A DNA stretch of 64,000 nucleotides, from NCBI RefSeq assembly GCF_021209385.1, contig NZ_JAJOIL010000016.1, forward strand, positions 1-64,000, in the 5' to 3' direction. The stretch comes from Seleniivibrio sp. (GTDB lineage: Bacteria; Chrysiogenota; Deferribacteres; Deferribacterales; Geovibrionaceae). Below are positions 42,441 through 61,600 of this stretch, piece by piece. The notes under the pieces are model-generated. The model was not told the DNA's origin. It ran no database searches and worked only from the letters and a program-made list of their open reading frames with translations. The stretch's first letter is position 1; each line of letters starts with the position of its first letter. A program made the position numbers and the translations under genes.

Positions 42441-42485
42441 ATCAACTTTCGTTTGAATGTCAACTTCCGCGGGTTATACTTCACT

Positions 42486-44699
42486 ATGGAATATAACCAA
42501 GGGATTAAACACAAAATATTCATTTATGTCAGTATAGTTCTTATAACTGTATGTGTACTTTTTGCGGTTTCAAACATAACGGTACGCTACATCGAATACA
42601 CTTCCGCCATGCGTCAGGAAGGCTATTTAGTGGAGAACAATCAAAGATTTCTTACATCGCAGCTTTCGCGGGTGCTTAAATCAAACCTGAGCAGAATTAT
42701 TTATGATTCATCTCTCGTAGAAGCTGTGGTAAGCAGAAACATACCGCTTCTAATGGGCAGAATGTCCATGCACACAAATGCACTTGATTTTGAATACCCG
42801 GACGATGTATTTGTCTTCCGTATCGTGGCAAAAGACGGCAGGCTCCTTTTCTCAAGTGACCGCAGAACGGATCACTGTCCTAAACCGATCTCTGACGCCG
42901 CATTGAACGAGCTTTCAGGGAAAGCCGCAGGCAATGCTTACGAACTATGTACCAATAAGATACTCCAGTTTTCCGCTCTGCCTATTTACAATAGCGGCGA
43001 GCTGGTAGGTGTGGTCGAGCTTGGCACTTCGCTCGAATTTTACGGAAGAGCAATGGAACAATCCACAGGCTACAGCATGGCTGTGCTTGCCAACACAGAT
43101 ACAAATCTCTTGGAGGGCATGCCCAGATACGGCAGATACGCTCTCATGCAGAACACTGACCAGACCATGTTCAGAAGGCTGCTCAATTCTGTACAGAACT
43201 ATGACAAACTGCCGGATATGGTTAACATCGGGAACATGCATTACCGAATTTCAGACGACATGCGTTTCTACTCTGCGGAAGGCAGGGAAGCTGGACGCTT
43301 TATATACGCCAAAGACGTCACATCCGACGTTTCTGCAATGCTTTCGTATACTCTCAGCGTTGTATTTATGACCATGGTTTTCTGTATCATATCCCTTATG
43401 CTTATCCGTGTCGGTTTCAACAGAACAGTAGGGACACTTGAAAAGGCACATGAACTCACAATCAACAAACTCCTTGTAAGTGAAGAGAAGCATAAGGAAT
43501 ACATAGATAACTCACCCATGTCCATTTTCACGACGAATGATTCAAAAATCTTTACGGATGCAAATAAGCGATTTCTTGATATGACCGGCACGTCAAAGAA
43601 CGAACTGGTTGTAAAAAGCCTTTACGATTTTGTAACGGATAACAGACGCAACGACATAAATAAGTTCTATTCAAAAGCTTTCCATGAAGGCAGCAACTCC
43701 GGCGTTTTATACGTCGTCAACAGGACAGGAAAAGAGATCGCCATGATGGCAAAGGCTGTAAAAATGAGCGAAAGATCGCTTCTGTTCAACTGTCTCGACA
43801 TAACTCACTCAATCGAAATGGAAAACAAACTAAAAGAACTCAACTTTGAACTTGAAACAATGAACAGAAACCTTGAAAAACGTATTGAAGAGGAGGTTGA
43901 AAAGAACCGTCGGCAGTCGCATATTCTGGCGGAACAGAAAAAGCTGGCGGATATGGGTCTGATGGTCAGCGCAATCGCCCACCAGTGGCGGCAGCCTCTG
44001 AATGCACTGGGCATAATGCTGCAATCAATACCGGATGCATTAAATATTGATGAAACTTCCCCGGAATATACCGATTATGAAAAGACCGCCATGCTGCTTG
44101 TAAAAAAGATGTCGGATACAATAGATAACTTCAGATTGTTTTTTGAAACAGGCGAAAGAAAAGAAAAATTCAATGTTGTGGATGAACTGCAAAACACTCA
44201 CGCGCTGCTTTCAGTACACATAGCCTCAAAGAACATAAAGACAAAATTCATGTGCAGAAGAGAACCGGACATACATTTTTCACCCTGCCTGTCTTGCGGA
44301 AGATGCAACGAAATAACGCTTTACGGCCAGCCGGGGGAATTCCGTCAGATGCTGATGAATATACTGAACAACAGTTACGAAGCGATAATCGAACGTATGA
44401 GCAGGCAACCGGAGCTGGAGGGCAGTATAGCAATCAACATAGTATGTTCTGATGAAAGGGTAACCATAAGCGTGGAAGACAACGGAACAGGCGTTTCGCC
44501 TGAGATACTCGACAGGATATTTGAACCCTATTTCTCAACAAAGAACGACGCTAAGTTTTCCGGTATCGGTCTCTATATGGTCAAGGTTCTCACTGAACAG
44601 AACCTCGGCGGCAAGGTAGCGGCATTCAACAATCACCTTGGCGGACTCACCGTTGTGATGGATTTCAGGCTGAGTGGGAAACCGGATCAGGTTTCCTGA
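42486..44699 (+). CDS. orphan sensor histidine kinase (kinase A) with Cys4 insert in the ATPase domain
   Basis: 737 residues from ATG 42486; a TTG at 42453 could add 11. Membrane helix at about 10-32, an extracytoplasmic Cache-like region to about 280, a second helix (YTLSVVFMTMVFCIISLML), a PAS domain (about 335-450), then a coiled coil and the HisKA region with phospho-acceptor His499 in AHQWRQPLNALG. Between the last HisKA segment and the ATPase N box is a Cys insert C590-x10-C601-x2-C604-x2-C607. ATPase motifs follow: FRQMLMNILNNSYEAI and VEDNGTGVSPEILDRIFEPY. No response regulator is adjacent. Its last 35 bp overlap the convergent kinase B gene. Confidence 0.88.
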   Translation: MEYNQGIKHKIFIYVSIVLITVCVLFAVSNITVRYIEYTSAMRQEGYLVENNQRFLTSQLSRVLKSNLSRIIYDSSLVEAVVSRNIPLLMGRMSMHTNALDFEYPDDVFVFRIVAKDGRLLFSSDRRTDHCPKPISDAALNELSGKAAGNAYELCTNKILQFSALPIYNSGELVGVVELGTSLEFYGRAMEQSTGYSMAVLANTDTNLLEGMPRYGRYALMQNTDQTMFRRLLNSVQNYDKLPDMVNIGNMHYRISDDMRFYSAEGREAGRFIYAKDVTSDVSAMLSYTLSVVFMTMVFCIISLMLIRVGFNRTVGTLEKAHELTINKLLVSEEKHKEYIDNSPMSIFTTNDSKIFTDANKRFLDMTGTSKNELVVKSLYDFVTDNRRNDINKFYSKAFHEGSNSGVLYVVNRTGKEIAMMAKAVKMSERSLLFNCLDITHSIEMENKLKELNFELETMNRNLEKRIEEEVEKNRRQSHILAEQKKLADMGLMVSAIAHQWRQPLNALGIMLQSIPDALNIDETSPEYTDYEKTAMLLVKKMSDTIDNFRLFFETGERKEKFNVVDELQNTHALLSVHIASKNIKTKFMCRREPDIHFSPCLSCGRCNEITLYGQPGEFRQMLMNILNNSYEAIIERMSRQPELEGSIAINIVCSDERVTISVEDNGTGVSPEILDRIFEPYFSTKNDAKFSGIGLYMVKVLTEQNLGGKVAAFNNHLGGLTVVMDFRLSGKPDQVS

Positions 44700-46662
44700 C
44701 AGGCAGAACAATGCAGAACACAACTCCGTTTTCAGTATTCTCAAAATACAGCTTCCCGCGCATGTAGTTCTCAATGATATTCTTAGTAAGATACAGCCCG
44801 ATGCCGGTACCCTTGCCTTCACCCTTTGTCGTGAAATACGGGTTGTATATCCTCTCCGCGACATATTCAGGTATGGTCTTGCCGTTATTGAATATTTTTA
44901 TTACAATACGATCGCCGTCCAAATCGACGTCAATCGAAATGGTCTTTTCCCTGCCGTTTTCATCGAAATCTTCATCCACTGCGTCAACAGCATTCTGAAG
45001 AACATTGATGAAAGCCTGTTTGAACTCGTCCTTATATCCGTCAACCACAACGCTGGTATACTCACACCCCATGTTTTCATAAAATCCCTGACAGTCCATA
45101 AAGTTTGAACCGCAGATGCATGAAGCGTTAAACGTTATCCCATGATAAGCGAGTTTAGCTTCGTATATTTTCAGTATCTCACGAACCTCAGACATTACCC
45201 TGAAAGCAGAACTGTTGCCCTGCGGTCTGAAAAATTCGCTGAAATTGTCTATAGTTGATGAGAGATTTCCTATGAGATGCATACATGTGCTTTCAAATCC
45301 CTTTATGTAGTCATTGTCCAGACCGTCGTCCCTGTATGTCTGGCAGATATCCTGAATATACAGCCCCAGTGCGTTCAAAGGCTGACGCCAGTGGTGTGCC
45401 ATGGCGCTTATTATGTTGCCAATATCTGCAAGTTTCTTCTGATTAAAAAGTATCTGCTCATATTTTCTGTTCTTTTCAGTCTCTCTGGCAATAGTGGCGT
45501 GAAGATTCAGGTTGATATCCTGAAGCTCGCAGGACTGCCTGTGAAGCTCGGTTATGTCGCGGCTTATACCAAACAAACCCACAAGTTCACCATCGGCATC
45601 CAAAAAAGGAGTTTTAACTGTTGACATAAGGTGTCTTGAACCGTTTTTAAACTCAACCCATTCGTCATTCAGGCGCGACTGGCGCATTGCAAACATGATC
45701 CTGTCGTTTGCTATGAATTCCTCCGCAACCTTTTTGCCGAAAAGGTCGAAATCTGTCTTTCCGATTACAGTGTCCGGTTCTTCACCTACAAAATCCGCAA
45801 ACGCTTTGTTGCATCCGAGGTAAACTCCATTCATATCTTTATAGAAGATAAGATCGGGAATGATATCGAACAGAGATTTTATAAGTCCCGCCTGCCTTCT
45901 TATCTCGTTGTATGCATTTTTGAGGTCGGTTATGTCTCTTCCGAGAACCACCAGACCTTTACGCATAGTCTTCTCATCATCGTAGAAAAGCGGGACTTTT
46001 ATAGTATCAAAGACCCGCACAGTGCCGTCCGGCATTGTAACAATCTCTTCTTCGCGGTTAATCACCTTCTTCTCCCATGTCGTCTCATCCGAATTGGCAC
46101 AGGCTTCCAGAGCCTCTTTATATATGGGAAGAGTGTAGTTTGCGAGTTCCTGATCGTTTTTACCGGTAAAATCATCTTTTCTGAGTGAAAAAGCGGTAAG
46201 ACAGCTTGAATTCGCCTCCAGCCAGCGTCCTTTGCTGTCTTTGAAACAGATAATGTCCGGTGTGGCATTTATAAGAGTTCGGAGCTGTTCCTGTTTCTCT
46301 CTGAGAACTGTGACTGCGGATGACAGTTCGCTGTCGTCACGAACTATAAGCGCAAGTTCACCGTCTGAGGATCTCACCGATTCGATGTGAAATCCTTTGT
46401 CAAGCTCGGCAACAAAATAGAAAACCGGAATGGTTATCGCATCTTTTACAACGTTTTCAAAATCGTTTTTAAAGAAAAGGCAGCAGAGATCCGCAACGTT
46501 ACTGCCTATCAGTTTTTCCACAGGACATCCTGTCATAGCTGTAAAAGCTTCGTTTGCATCCAGAATGACAGTTTTTTGGAAATTATCAGCAACAGCGGAA
46601 CTTAGAAGCACATACCCGAAATCAGCCTTATTAATAATGGATCTAAAAAAATCTTTCTCCAT
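44665..46662 (-). CDS. orphan cytosolic multi-PAS sensor histidine kinase (kinase B) with Cys4 insert
   Basis: 665 residues, no membrane helix. Three PAS domains: about 1-110, 125-250 and 255-375 (DFGYVLLSSAVADNFQK; LINATPDIICFKDSKGRWLE; LFDIIPDLIFYKDMNGVYLG). His423 lies in AHHWRQPLNALGLYIQ. A four-Cys insert (C515-x-C517-x6-C524-x8-C533) sits before the N box YKDEFKQAFINVLQNAVDAV. The catalytic GKTI-PEYVAERIYNPYF and [15 protein letters not shown] segments are intact. It is convergent with kinase A, with overlapping 3' ends. The PAS domains suggest a cytosolic ligand or redox signal. Confidence 0.88.
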   Translation of the reverse strand: MEKDFFRSIINKADFGYVLLSSAVADNFQKTVILDANEAFTAMTGCPVEKLIGSNVADLCCLFFKNDFENVVKDAITIPVFYFVAELDKGFHIESVRSSDGELALIVRDDSELSSAVTVLREKQEQLRTLINATPDIICFKDSKGRWLEANSSCLTAFSLRKDDFTGKNDQELANYTLPIYKEALEACANSDETTWEKKVINREEEIVTMPDGTVRVFDTIKVPLFYDDEKTMRKGLVVLGRDITDLKNAYNEIRRQAGLIKSLFDIIPDLIFYKDMNGVYLGCNKAFADFVGEEPDTVIGKTDFDLFGKKVAEEFIANDRIMFAMRQSRLNDEWVEFKNGSRHLMSTVKTPFLDADGELVGLFGISRDITELHRQSCELQDINLNLHATIARETEKNRKYEQILFNQKKLADIGNIISAMAHHWRQPLNALGLYIQDICQTYRDDGLDNDYIKGFESTCMHLIGNLSSTIDNFSEFFRPQGNSSAFRVMSEVREILKIYEAKLAYHGITFNASCICGSNFMDCQGFYENMGCEYTSVVVDGYKDEFKQAFINVLQNAVDAVDEDFDENGREKTISIDVDLDGDRIVIKIFNNGKTIPEYVAERIYNPYFTTKGEGKGTGIGLYLTKNIIENYMRGKLYFENTENGVVFCIVLPVRKPDPVSHSA

Positions 46663-53013: not shown

Positions 53014-54750
53014 TCAGGACTGGAAGACAGGAACAAGGATGATAAATGACGCACCGTCGTCTGTGTTGTGGGCATAGATTCGCCCGTTCATATGTTTTTC
53101 GATTATATTTTTAGTAATGAAAAGCCCGAGACCGCTGTATCCGCTCCCCTTCGTGGTATATCCGGAGTCAAATATCCTTGCGATATTGTCTATGCCGCCT
53201 CCGTTGTCCGTAACTGCGACCCGAACGTTCCCGCCGTCCACCTCAACGTTTATACGGACAGCCGCTTCAAAATCAACCGAGTCGGGATGTTTCACTTTCA
53301 GAGCGTCCACAGAGTTGGTTATAATGTTCATCAGCGCCTGTTTAAACTCGCCTCTGTACCCGAAAACCTCCATGCTGACAGCTTCCTTCTCAGTAAGATA
53401 GACCTTTATATCGTTCTGTTTCAGGTGACTGCGCATGATGTAAAGAAGCGCCTGTATCTCTTCGGAAACGTCAAACACCTCTTTTCCGTCGTATTTGCGG
53501 AAATAGCTGTTCACCTCGTCCAGATACTGCTCCATCTCCGCAATCAGTGCCAGCTGTTCTTTGGCGGTTTCACTGTTTTCCATCTTCTGTATGCTGTTCT
53601 TCATGTAAGACAGCGGCTTTGCAATCTTCTGGGACATAGCGTCGGTTATGCGTTCTATATCCGACATCTTTTTTCTGTTCTGTATGGTCTGTTCGGATTC
53701 AGCCAGTTTCTCAAGCGCAGTGTCCATCTGATTTTCAAGATTCCGGCTGTAATCTTTCAGCTGCTGTTCAATCTTGTTATGTCTGTATTCCAGATCGCCT
53801 ATAAGGTCTATGAAGTTACGCTTCATAACCAGGATTGAGATGACAATTATGAACACGCCGATAAGCGCGGAAATTACGATATGACGCATCATTTTATGAT
53901 ATTGCCCCGTCTCGTCGGACAGAAAAACCAGTTCGCCGATTACGGTACCCGTAACATCCGGTATGTCTATACCGCTTATGATATGATATTTTCTGTTCTG
54001 GTAAGATTCATGGACATCCTTTCCCTCGCTCTCGTAGAAACTGCTGAGTATCGAACGGAAAAGCACGTCGTCCGTGCTGAAAAGCATGTATCTGTCAGAG
54101 AATCTCGTATAGTCGGTTATTCCTGATATCATGTCGGCAAATCTGCTGAAAATAATGACAGCGCCGTCCATTTTCATTGTTGAGCTTATGCGCTTTACCA
54201 GAAAATCAATGATAACGCCCGTCTCCGCGTAGCCTATGCATATGCCTTCGGAGTAGATGGGAAGGATATTGCGTATGAAAACCCCGCTCAGCCCCTCTTC
54301 AGTTCCGGATTGTCCGAAACCTGTTTCAGCAGCCCTGTCCAAAAGAACCCGGCTTCCTTTCAGAATATCCCCGTATTTTTTCGGTGCCGACATACGCAAA
54401 AGAACTGTGCCGTCCGGCGTTATAAAATTCATGATGATCTTTTCGCGGTTAAACTCGTCCGCCATTCTGTCATAAAGATTATATGCGGCGGCGGACAATG
54501 CGGTTCGGTCTTTTCTTTTCAGGGCTGAAACGACATCTCTGTCCGAAGCTAATTCTCTTGTTTTCTGGCTTAAAAGTTTGTCGATGCGAATGGGGAAATC
54601 GTTGTAAAGACCGGATATGACCTCTTTCTTTTCTTCTGCCGCTTTTGCTGCCTGACGTGCGCCCTCATACTCCAGAAGACCGGTGTATATGGTGCAAATC
54701 AGCACAATAATAGCCGTGATAAAAACAAAGGTACGCTTCTGAACTGACAT
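53014..54750 (-). CDS. orphan sensor kinase (kinase D) with the phospho-acceptor His replaced
   Basis: 578 residues from ATG 54750. TM helix at about 8-28, an extracytoplasmic Cache-like region, a second helix (VISALIGVFIIVISILVM), and a coiled coil. The HisKA region reads ITDAMSQKIAKPLSYMKNSI, where the sister kinases have AHQWRQPL; the residue in the His position is Gln374. The ATPase domain is intact: YRGEFKQALMNIITNSVDAL, VTDNGGGIDNIARIF and SGLGLFITKNIIEKHMNG. It lacks the Cys insert of kinases A-C. It could be a pseudokinase that acts through its ATPase domain or a partner. Confidence 0.85.
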   Translation of the reverse strand: MSVQKRTFVFITAIIVLICTIYTGLLEYEGARQAAKAAEEKKEVISGLYNDFPIRIDKLLSQKTRELASDRDVVSALKRKDRTALSAAAYNLYDRMADEFNREKIIMNFITPDGTVLLRMSAPKKYGDILKGSRVLLDRAAETGFGQSGTEEGLSGVFIRNILPIYSEGICIGYAETGVIIDFLVKRISSTMKMDGAVIIFSRFADMISGITDYTRFSDRYMLFSTDDVLFRSILSSFYESEGKDVHESYQNRKYHIISGIDIPDVTGTVIGELVFLSDETGQYHKMMRHIVISALIGVFIIVISILVMKRNFIDLIGDLEYRHNKIEQQLKDYSRNLENQMDTALEKLAESEQTIQNRKKMSDIERITDAMSQKIAKPLSYMKNSIQKMENSETAKEQLALIAEMEQYLDEVNSYFRKYDGKEVFDVSEEIQALLYIMRSHLKQNDIKVYLTEKEAVSMEVFGYRGEFKQALMNIITNSVDALKVKHPDSVDFEAAVRINVEVDGGNVRVAVTDNGGGIDNIARIFDSGYTTKGSGYSGLGLFITKNIIEKHMNGRIYAHNTDDGASFIILVPVFQS

Positions 54751-54910
54751 GACACGCCTCGCAACGGAGTTTTGCCGCTTATTAAATATAAAGCATCGCC
54801 TTGTTTTTAATATCAAAGAAATGTAAGATTAAGATTGAAAATGAATGAAACTATTTCACCTCCGTTTTAGTCTTCGCGAAGGCTTCAGCCTGAAGCGATT
54901 TCATTTTTAT

Positions 54911-58914: not shown

Positions 58915-59703
58915 ATGGCGGAAATCACATTTTATCAGGTGGATGCATTTACAGGAAACGTGTTCGGAGGAAACCCAGCCGGCGTATGTCCATTGAAAGC
59001 TGAACTTTCCGATGATTTGATGCAGAAGATAGCCGCCGAAAACAACCTTTCTGAAACAGCCTTCATCTTCACCCGCGAAGGCAGACTCCACATCCGCTGG
59101 TTCACACCTGAAGCAGAAGTAGATCTCTGCGGACATGCAACCCTTGCCTCTGCACATGTGATGTTCCACCACGAAGGTTTCACAGGACAAATACTAGAAT
59201 TCCAGTCGAAAAGCGGAGCACTGCGAGTTAAAAACAAAGGCGACATCCTTGAACTGGATTTCCCCGTTGCACAGTACGAACCCTGCGCAGAACCGGAAGG
59301 TCTGACAGAAGCGCTGGGATGCAAACCGGTTGAGGTCTATGCGGGTGCGGATTATATGGCGGTATTCGAGAAAGAACAGGATATCGTTGATATGAAACCG
59401 GATTTCGCGTCGCTTAAAAAACTTTCTCTCAGGGGAGTGATGGTTACTGCGAAAGGTTCTTCATGCGATTTTATAAGCAGGTTCTTCGCCCCGAACATCG
59501 GCATAAACGAAGATCCGGTAACAGGTTCCGCACACTGTCTTCTCACACCCTACTGGACGGAGAAGCTGAACAAAAAGCTTTTGATCGCAAGGCAGGTGTC
59601 AAAACGCGGCGGACTGCTGTTCTGTACTCTCGACTATGACAGGGTGCTTATAGCCGGAAAATGCGCAGACTACCTTAAAGGAACAATCACACTGGCGGAT
59701 TGA
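58915..59703 (+). CDS. PhzF-family isomerase-like protein
   Basis: 262 residues. PhzF hallmarks: QVDAFTGNVFGGNPAGVC, ENNLSETAFIF with the catalytic Glu, IRWFTPEAEVDLCGHATLAS and DPVTGSAHCLL. The family covers phenazine biosynthesis and other isomerases; no phenazine genes are nearby, so the substrate is unknown. GAGG precedes the ATG. The last 17 bp overlap the convergent kinase C gene. Confidence 0.9.
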   Translation: MAEITFYQVDAFTGNVFGGNPAGVCPLKAELSDDLMQKIAAENNLSETAFIFTREGRLHIRWFTPEAEVDLCGHATLASAHVMFHHEGFTGQILEFQSKSGALRVKNKGDILELDFPVAQYEPCAEPEGLTEALGCKPVEVYAGADYMAVFEKEQDIVDMKPDFASLKKLSLRGVMVTAKGSSCDFISRFFAPNIGINEDPVTGSAHCLLTPYWTEKLNKKLLIARQVSKRGGLLFCTLDYDRVLIAGKCADYLKGTITLAD

Positions 59704-61600
59704 GTTTCTTGATCTTCGGGCTGACCCTTGGCAGCACAATGACAAATACTGCTCCCATTTCGTCGTTATATACAGATATCTTGCCGCCCATGTGTTCTTC
59801 AACTATCAGCCGCGACATATAAAGCCCTATCCCTGTGCCTTTGCCCTCAGGTTTAGTGGTAAAATACGGATCGAATATCTTTTTCTTTATGCTTTCCGGC
59901 ACACCGCCTCCGTTGTCTGAGATAGATATCGTCACGTTCTCGTCCATTGCGGAAACTGCAATCGTAACCTTTTTATTACCCTGTCTGTCGAGAAGAACAT
60001 CCTTCGCATTCTGAACAAGATTCATAAGCACCTGACGGAATTCGGATGAAAACCCGTTAACAAGTGTTTCGGGAAGTTCGCACGGCGGGCGCAGCAGGTT
60101 ATTGCAAACCTCAAAATCGCGTTCTTTGCACCTGCATGTTACTGCAAAATCAATCGAAACGTTTTTAAGCTGTGCCTCAACCAGCGAAACGGTGTCTATC
60201 ACCGCCTTTATAACCTCAAAAGAGGTCTCTTCGCTGCGAGGATTGAAAAAACTGCGGAAATCATCTATGGTCTTTGACATATGCTGGATGAGCTTCATGG
60301 AATCCGTCTTAAAATTCTCCAGCATATCCTCATCAAGAGATTTATCCTTAAAGCTTTCGTATACAAGCTGAATATACAATCCAACCGAGTTTATCGGCTG
60401 ACGCCACTGGTGTGCGATGGCGTTTATCATCTGTCCCATATCAGCAAATTTTTTCTGCTCGAAAAAAAGCTGTTCCTGCATCATACGCTTCGCAGTCTCC
60501 TCGTGTACCCTCTCCTCAAGATCGGCAGTAAGTCTCTGCAATTCTCTGGAACGGGCTATAAGAGCCTCTTTTGTAACTGCCTCCAGTGTTCTGTCGCTGG
60601 CGCGCACGACTATTCCCTGTACTTCCCCGTCAACTATATGCGGCAGAAAAGATGCATCCAGATACGTTTCTCCTCTGCCCGGCAGAGTGAACCAGCCGGA
60701 AAACGATACAAAACTGCCTTTGAGTGCCTTTGCAAAGTACGGCGAGAGTATTTCGTCCATCTGGGTCTTTTTCATTTTTTCGCCGAAAGGCTTTCCTATG
60801 ATCTCTGCCTGTTTCTCATCAAGAATGGTCAGATACGCCTTGTTCGCAGACAGGTATCTCATATTCTTATCCAAAAAAGCGACATATTCGTCCAGACTGT
60901 CGAATATGTTCCCATAAAGTTCGAGTTCCTTCTTCGCCTTAACCAGCCTGTCCACACGGCGCGAGGAGAATATGTAAAAACCCAGACCGCCGCCGACAAT
61001 TATCACCAGCGCCATAAGCACCGACGAAACCACCGCTCTTGTTTTTGGAGATATTACATCTATATATTTTATCTTTGCCACCATACCGTAACGAACGTTT
61101 CCGATATCCACATGGTCATATGCGGCAAGCACTTTTTCTCCGGTAAAATCCATTGCGGATGTAAGTCCGCTTTTGTCCGAAAGAGCCATGGCAAGTATCG
61201 AATCCGACGGAACGTTTGAAAAATCGCCTGAATGGTCGTCCAGATTATCGCGCCTGCTGTGGCTTAAAATGGCAAATTTGCCGCCTGTCAGCGAGGCGGT
61301 GTAAAACTCAGTGGAATACCTTTTATATACTGTCGGGCTGAAACTTTTTCTGAGTACATCAATGGCGTCCGCCGCCGCAGTTTCCGGGTTGTCTTCATAA
61401 AATCTGGCATAAACGGATATGAAGATATCCTTGCGCGCCCGCACTATCTCCATCAGACGCTGTTCATAAATGGACTTGGTATTTTCGTACCAGTACACGG
61501 CAACAGCAGCGCCGACGGCGATGGTCAGAACTGATAGAAGTATGAAGAGCAAAACAACTCTTTTACTGTCCTTCAAGGTAAAACTCCAATTAAAGGTCAA
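59687..61600 (-). CDS. orphan membrane sensor histidine kinase (kinase C) with Cys4 insert
   Basis: 637 residues. TM helix at about 15-36, a Cache-like extracytoplasmic region (to about 190), a second helix ([21 protein letters not shown]), a PAS domain (about 225-345), then His397 in [16 protein letters not shown]. Before the N box [20 protein letters not shown] is a four-Cys insert C489-x-C491-x7-C499-x7-C507, spaced very like that of kinase B. ATPase motifs [20 protein letters not shown] and [18 protein letters not shown] are intact. No response regulator adjacent; its end overlaps phzF. Confidence 0.88.

Follow-up and report, generated by a model that had tools for sequence, protein, structure and literature searches.

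An extended beta1-beta2 hairpin with a putative four-ligand metal site in the histidine kinase catalytic domain of Seleniivibrio and its relatives

Histidine kinases are generally thought to sense by way of their N-terminal domains, the catalytic core being standard. In a search of the mostly open-access literature, no cysteine, zinc or Fe-S insert was found in the beta1-beta2 hairpin of the catalytic (CA) domain, and the only precedents were SrrB, FixT and WalK. The CA domain of Staphylococcus aureus SrrB (6paj) carries a redox-active disulfide that has been proposed as a redox reporter (reviewed in PMC8534201). FixT of Caulobacter is a receiver that binds Fe-S through a four-cysteine motif and exerts redox-dependent control of a kinase (PMC7078487), and WalK is a histidine kinase regulated by cytoplasmic zinc, which is bound in its PAS domain (PMC6624279, PMC8534201). 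A ligand at the CA sheet itself is described for CckA, where c-di-GMP binds (PMC8534201).

The kinases described here resemble SrrB in a possible tie between CA-domain cysteines and redox state, and FixT in the addition of a four-cysteine motif to a two-component protein. They differ from SrrB, which has a single intramolecular disulfide and no four-cysteine insert, and for which the review reports no metal (PMC8534201); from FixT, which is a receiver domain rather than a kinase and whose cluster affects stability and not inhibition in vitro (PMC7078487); and from WalK, in having their insert in the CA domain. The string HQWRQPL, the H box of one of them, is absent from the literature searched. 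A histidine kinase catalytic domain with such an insert is thus apparently undescribed so far, as an earlier note on this DNA had supposed; most subscription literature lay outside the search, so that this does not prove the absence of an earlier description.

The window, that is, the whole 64 kb stretch of DNA analysed (47% GC), belongs to a 2.9 Mb genome whose closest relatives among those compared are Deferribacteraceae. Seleniivibrio woodruffii is of the same genus as the host, and UBA6793 is 84% identical to the core of kinase A. Three kinases of the window, A, B and C, carry the insert, and a fourth, D, serves for comparison (Table 1). Kinases A, B and C have the acceptor His, the N, G and F boxes and a HATPase_c domain (Pfam, E 2e-16 to 1e-21) of sensor histidine kinases. 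They share the DHp H box and the CA N, F and G boxes with HK853, ThkA/TM1359 and ZraS, and sequence and AF2 model alike match these folds; ThkA, unlike kinases A, B and C, has no insert. The 3' ends of kinases A and B overlap by 35 bp (44665-44699), and the same A-B arrangement recurs in three further species of the genus (G009, G010, G011). No response regulator or metal-homeostasis gene was found among the gene neighbours of A, B and C. The G1 box of kinase B reads NNGKT (NNGKQ in its UBA6793 ortholog) in place of the usual DxGxG, with Asn for the adenine-contacting Asp; kinase B may be a weak kinase or chiefly a phosphatase.

Table 1. Positions in the window of the four kinases and of the parts discussed
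Feature	Coordinates	Strand	Remark
Kinase A, dCache_3 + PAS + DHp (HQWRQPL) + CA domain	42453..44699	+	
Kinase A, H box HQWRQPL	43980..44000	+	
Kinase A, CA strand beta1 to N-box FRQ	44235..44348	+	insert inside
Kinase A, four-Cys insert, C-x10-C-x2-C-x2-C, CRREPDIHFSPCLSCGRC	44253..44306	+	Cys invariant in 4 genus species
Kinase B, soluble, PAS domains + DHp (HHWRQPL) + CA	44665..46662	-	convergent with kinase A
Kinase B, four-Cys insert, C-x-C-x6-C-x8-C, CICGSNFMDCQGFYENMGC	45064..45120	-	
Kinase D, dCache_3 + degenerate DHp (no acceptor His) + CA without insert	53014..54816	-	comparison only
Kinase C, N-terminal membrane region + PAS_4 + DHp (HQWRQPI) + CA	59687..61600	-	
Kinase C, four-Cys insert, C-x-C-x7-C-x7-C	60080..60136	-	

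The earlier note had placed four cysteines after the first ATPase strand and ahead of the N box (FRQ or FKQ) in all three kinases. The translations agree, and the spacings and coordinates it gave are right; only its numbering for kinase A (590-607) counts from an internal ATG, the cysteines lying at 601-618 of the TTG-started ORF. It had also put the insert inside the ATPase domain. This holds in structural terms, the insert being part of the catalytic domain's beta1-beta2 hairpin, and fails in terms of the Pfam HATPase_c model, which in kinase A starts at residue 628, just beyond it. ThkA (3a0r) aligns on both sides of the insert with a 16-residue gap exactly at it, and many matches to the kinase profile have a beta1-beta2 hairpin about 17 aa longer. 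A Pfam search gave no named domain for the insert, and a PDB sequence search gave no solved structure containing it and no solved kinase that spans the hairpin. AF2 models of the DHp-CA region have mean pLDDT values of 84.6 for kinase C, whose model matches HK853, ThkA and similar folds, and 83.2 for kinase B. They place a hairpin at the insert, where the pLDDT is only 58-73. In kinase C, beta1 spans 110-117 and ends with C115 and C117, the connecting segment holds C125 and C133, and beta2 spans 139-142. In kinase B, beta1 (111-119) bears C117 and C119, C126 follows a short return strand (122-125), and C135 lies ahead of beta2 (141-144).

The concentration of cysteine in this hairpin is extreme. 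At least four Cys within 24 aa occur in 55 of 169 long loops and in none of 1354 segments of the same length elsewhere in DHp and CA; cysteine accounts for 5.6% of the loop sequence, as against 0.5% in DHp and 0.7% in CA outside the loop. Under a binomial model with Cys rates of 0.6-2%, a stretch of 20 aa would contain at least four Cys with a probability of 6e-6 to 6e-4. Among the orthologs of A, of B, of C and of a further kinase, L004, the Cys columns are 100% identical and other loop positions 46-74%, and the S. woodruffii ortholog of kinase B retains its cysteines despite a one-residue indel before C30 (column numbers are positions within the loop). Enrichment and ortholog conservation together bear out the suggestion of a four-Cys site that is kept by selection at a single structural position, though with varying spacing; such a site is compatible with the zinc or Fe-S binding that the earlier note had suggested. 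They weigh against a loop for docking or partner recognition in which the cysteines are incidental, or a neutral Cys-rich insertion. Although the strong variation of the non-Cys residues is what specificity loops would display, and Cys-free versions exist, no other residues of the loop are as conserved as the cysteines, and this is the least probable of the explanations considered.

The columns themselves look like metal ligands. Among 50 non-redundant 43-aa loops of the family, Cys is found at C12 in 44, C14 in 42, C21 in 25, C22 in 5 and C30 in 45, and C14 is found only together with C30 (47 of 47 in the family). Four conserved candidate Cys/His ligands, as in structural or regulatory zinc-site proteins, are present as C12, C14, C21/22 and C30 with Cys/His swaps. 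Several loops with only C12, C14 and C30 bear an extra His (H32, H33, H20 or H22), which could be the fourth ligand; at least four such loops show no evident fourth Cys or His. A metal site is likely, being indicated by ligands that are fixed in place, swap identity between Cys and His and keep their number in most members. For C-x-C...C...C in a cytoplasmic protein, Zn(II) is the default expectation, and it would be the most likely metal in kinases B and C. In kinase A, the only one of the three with CxxCxxC plus a distal Cys, a [4Fe-4S] cluster is possible. Our preferred reading, with a probability of about 0.42, is that the insert is an extended beta1-beta2 hairpin whose putative four-ligand metal site acts as a metal or redox input.

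In the main class, three ligands would be provided by C12 and C14, where beta1 ends, and by C30 just before beta2; either the connecting turn (C21/22) or beta2 (C32 or H32-34) would supply the fourth. His would fill some of these places in other phyla (C-H-x-H...C), and kinase A would use a different set, C-x10-C-x2-C-x2-C, nearer to Fe-S motifs. Binding of metal would fold and stiffen the hairpin at the entry to CA. As the CA domain starts with this hairpin, adjacent to the DHp-CA hinge, we propose coupling to CA mobility: loading with metal or oxidation of the thiols could alter the reach of CA to the acceptor His, and with it the autokinase or phosphatase output. A cytoplasmic metal or redox input would in this way be added to kinases with differing N-terminal sensors. 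The insert accompanies dCache, PAS or neither at the N-terminus, as expected of a property of the catalytic part.

The same ligand evidence would serve a permanent Zn(II) that holds the long hairpin together without any sensing role. Structural zinc sites typically show swaps of Cys to His, and such a clip would also be present whatever the type of N-terminal sensor. The hairpin can nevertheless manage without metal, since the cysteines have been lost repeatedly while the hairpin stayed: it is Cys-free in paralogues of the host genome (L006, L009, L010), and a minority of close relatives retain it without Cys, so that the site is dispensable for folding in those kinases. The CxxCxxC of kinase A would moreover be unusual for structural zinc. 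We regard a purely structural role as somewhat unlikely, whilst weighting it nearly equally with sensing.

How the ligands have changed in evolution bears on a further explanation. On a tree of 168 long-loop kinases built without the loop, 14 losses of C12 and 15 of C30 are inferred, and the two were lost on the same branch seven times against 1.56 expected (p=0.0005). Joint change of C14 and C30 has marginal support (p=0.056) and the middle Cys varies independently; neither it nor C14 shows joint loss with others significantly above chance in this test. Fisher tests on the loop columns, which take no account of relatedness, are given no weight here. Joint loss is significant for C12-C30 only, and we therefore do not claim that the four cysteines evolve as one unit. 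C12 and C30 look like an old pair to which further ligands were added by different routes, apparently C14 and C21/22 in the family, H13/H15 in Nitrospirota and CxxCxxC in kinase A. A metal-free thiol switch, in which oxidation produces disulfides that alter kinase activity, on the model proposed for the SrrB CA domain (PMC8534201), would fit a pair that flanks the hairpin in sequence order, is apparently the oldest and is lost jointly, and also the loops of Nitrospirota type, which mostly have just this pair plus His. Four cysteines, often as C-x-C and swapping with His, exceed the needs of a disulfide, however, and His cannot replace a disulfide partner, which makes such a switch improbable. 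The pattern with its Cys/His swaps points to a metal site, as in the preferred reading.

The earlier note had proposed searching HQWRQPL-type kinases for the spread of the insert, and the site proves to be present in all 12 genomes of the family, with a related hairpin in other phyla. The kinase profile gives 19-33 strong matches in each family genome; this sample was ranked by a profile of four-Cys kinases, which makes any share of site-bearing kinases taken from it an upper estimate. A DNA pattern (C-x-C...C...C, then E-[F]-[KR]-Q at 12 residues) is matched in 11 of the 12 family genomes, in 0 of 39 other phylum genomes and not at all in a reversed control. The twelfth (G007) has the site as variants that the pattern misses (L119, L236). 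The C-x10-C-x2-C-x2-C of kinase A was seen only in four species of the genus; a DNA pattern for it misses the window's own copy. When the four-Cys DNA pattern was applied to 296 Nitrospirota genomes, the matches mostly looked unrelated to these kinases, and spread there was therefore judged by profile.

By profile, the same hairpin occurs in relatives from Nitrospirota, Desulfobulbaceae, Syntrophus and Riflebacteria, mostly with 39 residues. Outside the family it usually takes the form C-H-x-H...C: 28 loops of 39 aa from other phyla have C12 in 25, H13 in 17, H15 in 23 and C28 in 24. The Nitrospirota with the hairpin are chiefly magnetotactic-type genomes with 19-40 strong matches each (G052, G060, G124, G145, G161, G196, G233), whose long-loop kinases are mostly of this His-containing version. 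Lone four-Cys loops were found in two Nitrospirota genomes (L171, L172) and one Gallionellaceae genome (L070); otherwise, even samples of Desulfobacterota (148) and Gammaproteobacteria (185) contained no long-loop kinases among the strong matches. L171, from Nitrospirota genome G051, is fused to an N-terminal receiver domain.

Were the site metal-responsive, cytoplasmic metal or redox state would act directly on the enzyme part of these kinases, whatever the sensor reads. The broader proposition is of a metal or Fe-S sensor in the kinase catalytic domain, independent of the N-terminal sensor; as each genome would carry it in many paralogues, a single cytoplasmic metal or redox state would gate many signalling pathways at once. 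Taken as a whole, this is unlikely.

Kinase D does lack both the insert and the acceptor His, as noted earlier, with Gln at the His position (AMSQKIAKPL, 53611-53637). Its orthologs are 81-83% identical; the Gln is shared by the window and UBA6793 copies, and the S. woodruffii copy (L329) reads AMSHKLAKPL, with His. The loss of His in kinase D thus looks recent and limited to some species. A link between the missing insert and the lost His, which the earlier note had drawn, is ruled out by this ortholog and by the many kinases that retain HQWRQP without the insert or its cysteines.

Two further observations concern relatives of these kinases. Several such kinases of Denitrovibrio BM704 and BM701 (G003 and G002) have one in-frame stop (TAG, TAA or TGA) in frames that are otherwise intact, for example L080 (G003:C11:76178-76924); these are pseudogenes or assembly errors. 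In the host genome, L018 (G000:C30:139478-140233), which is close to the four-Cys kinase L004 on the same contig, has a longer and differently arranged Cys-rich insert at the same place, in a 57-aa loop (CAMGG...HSCGRGRFFCDDVC).
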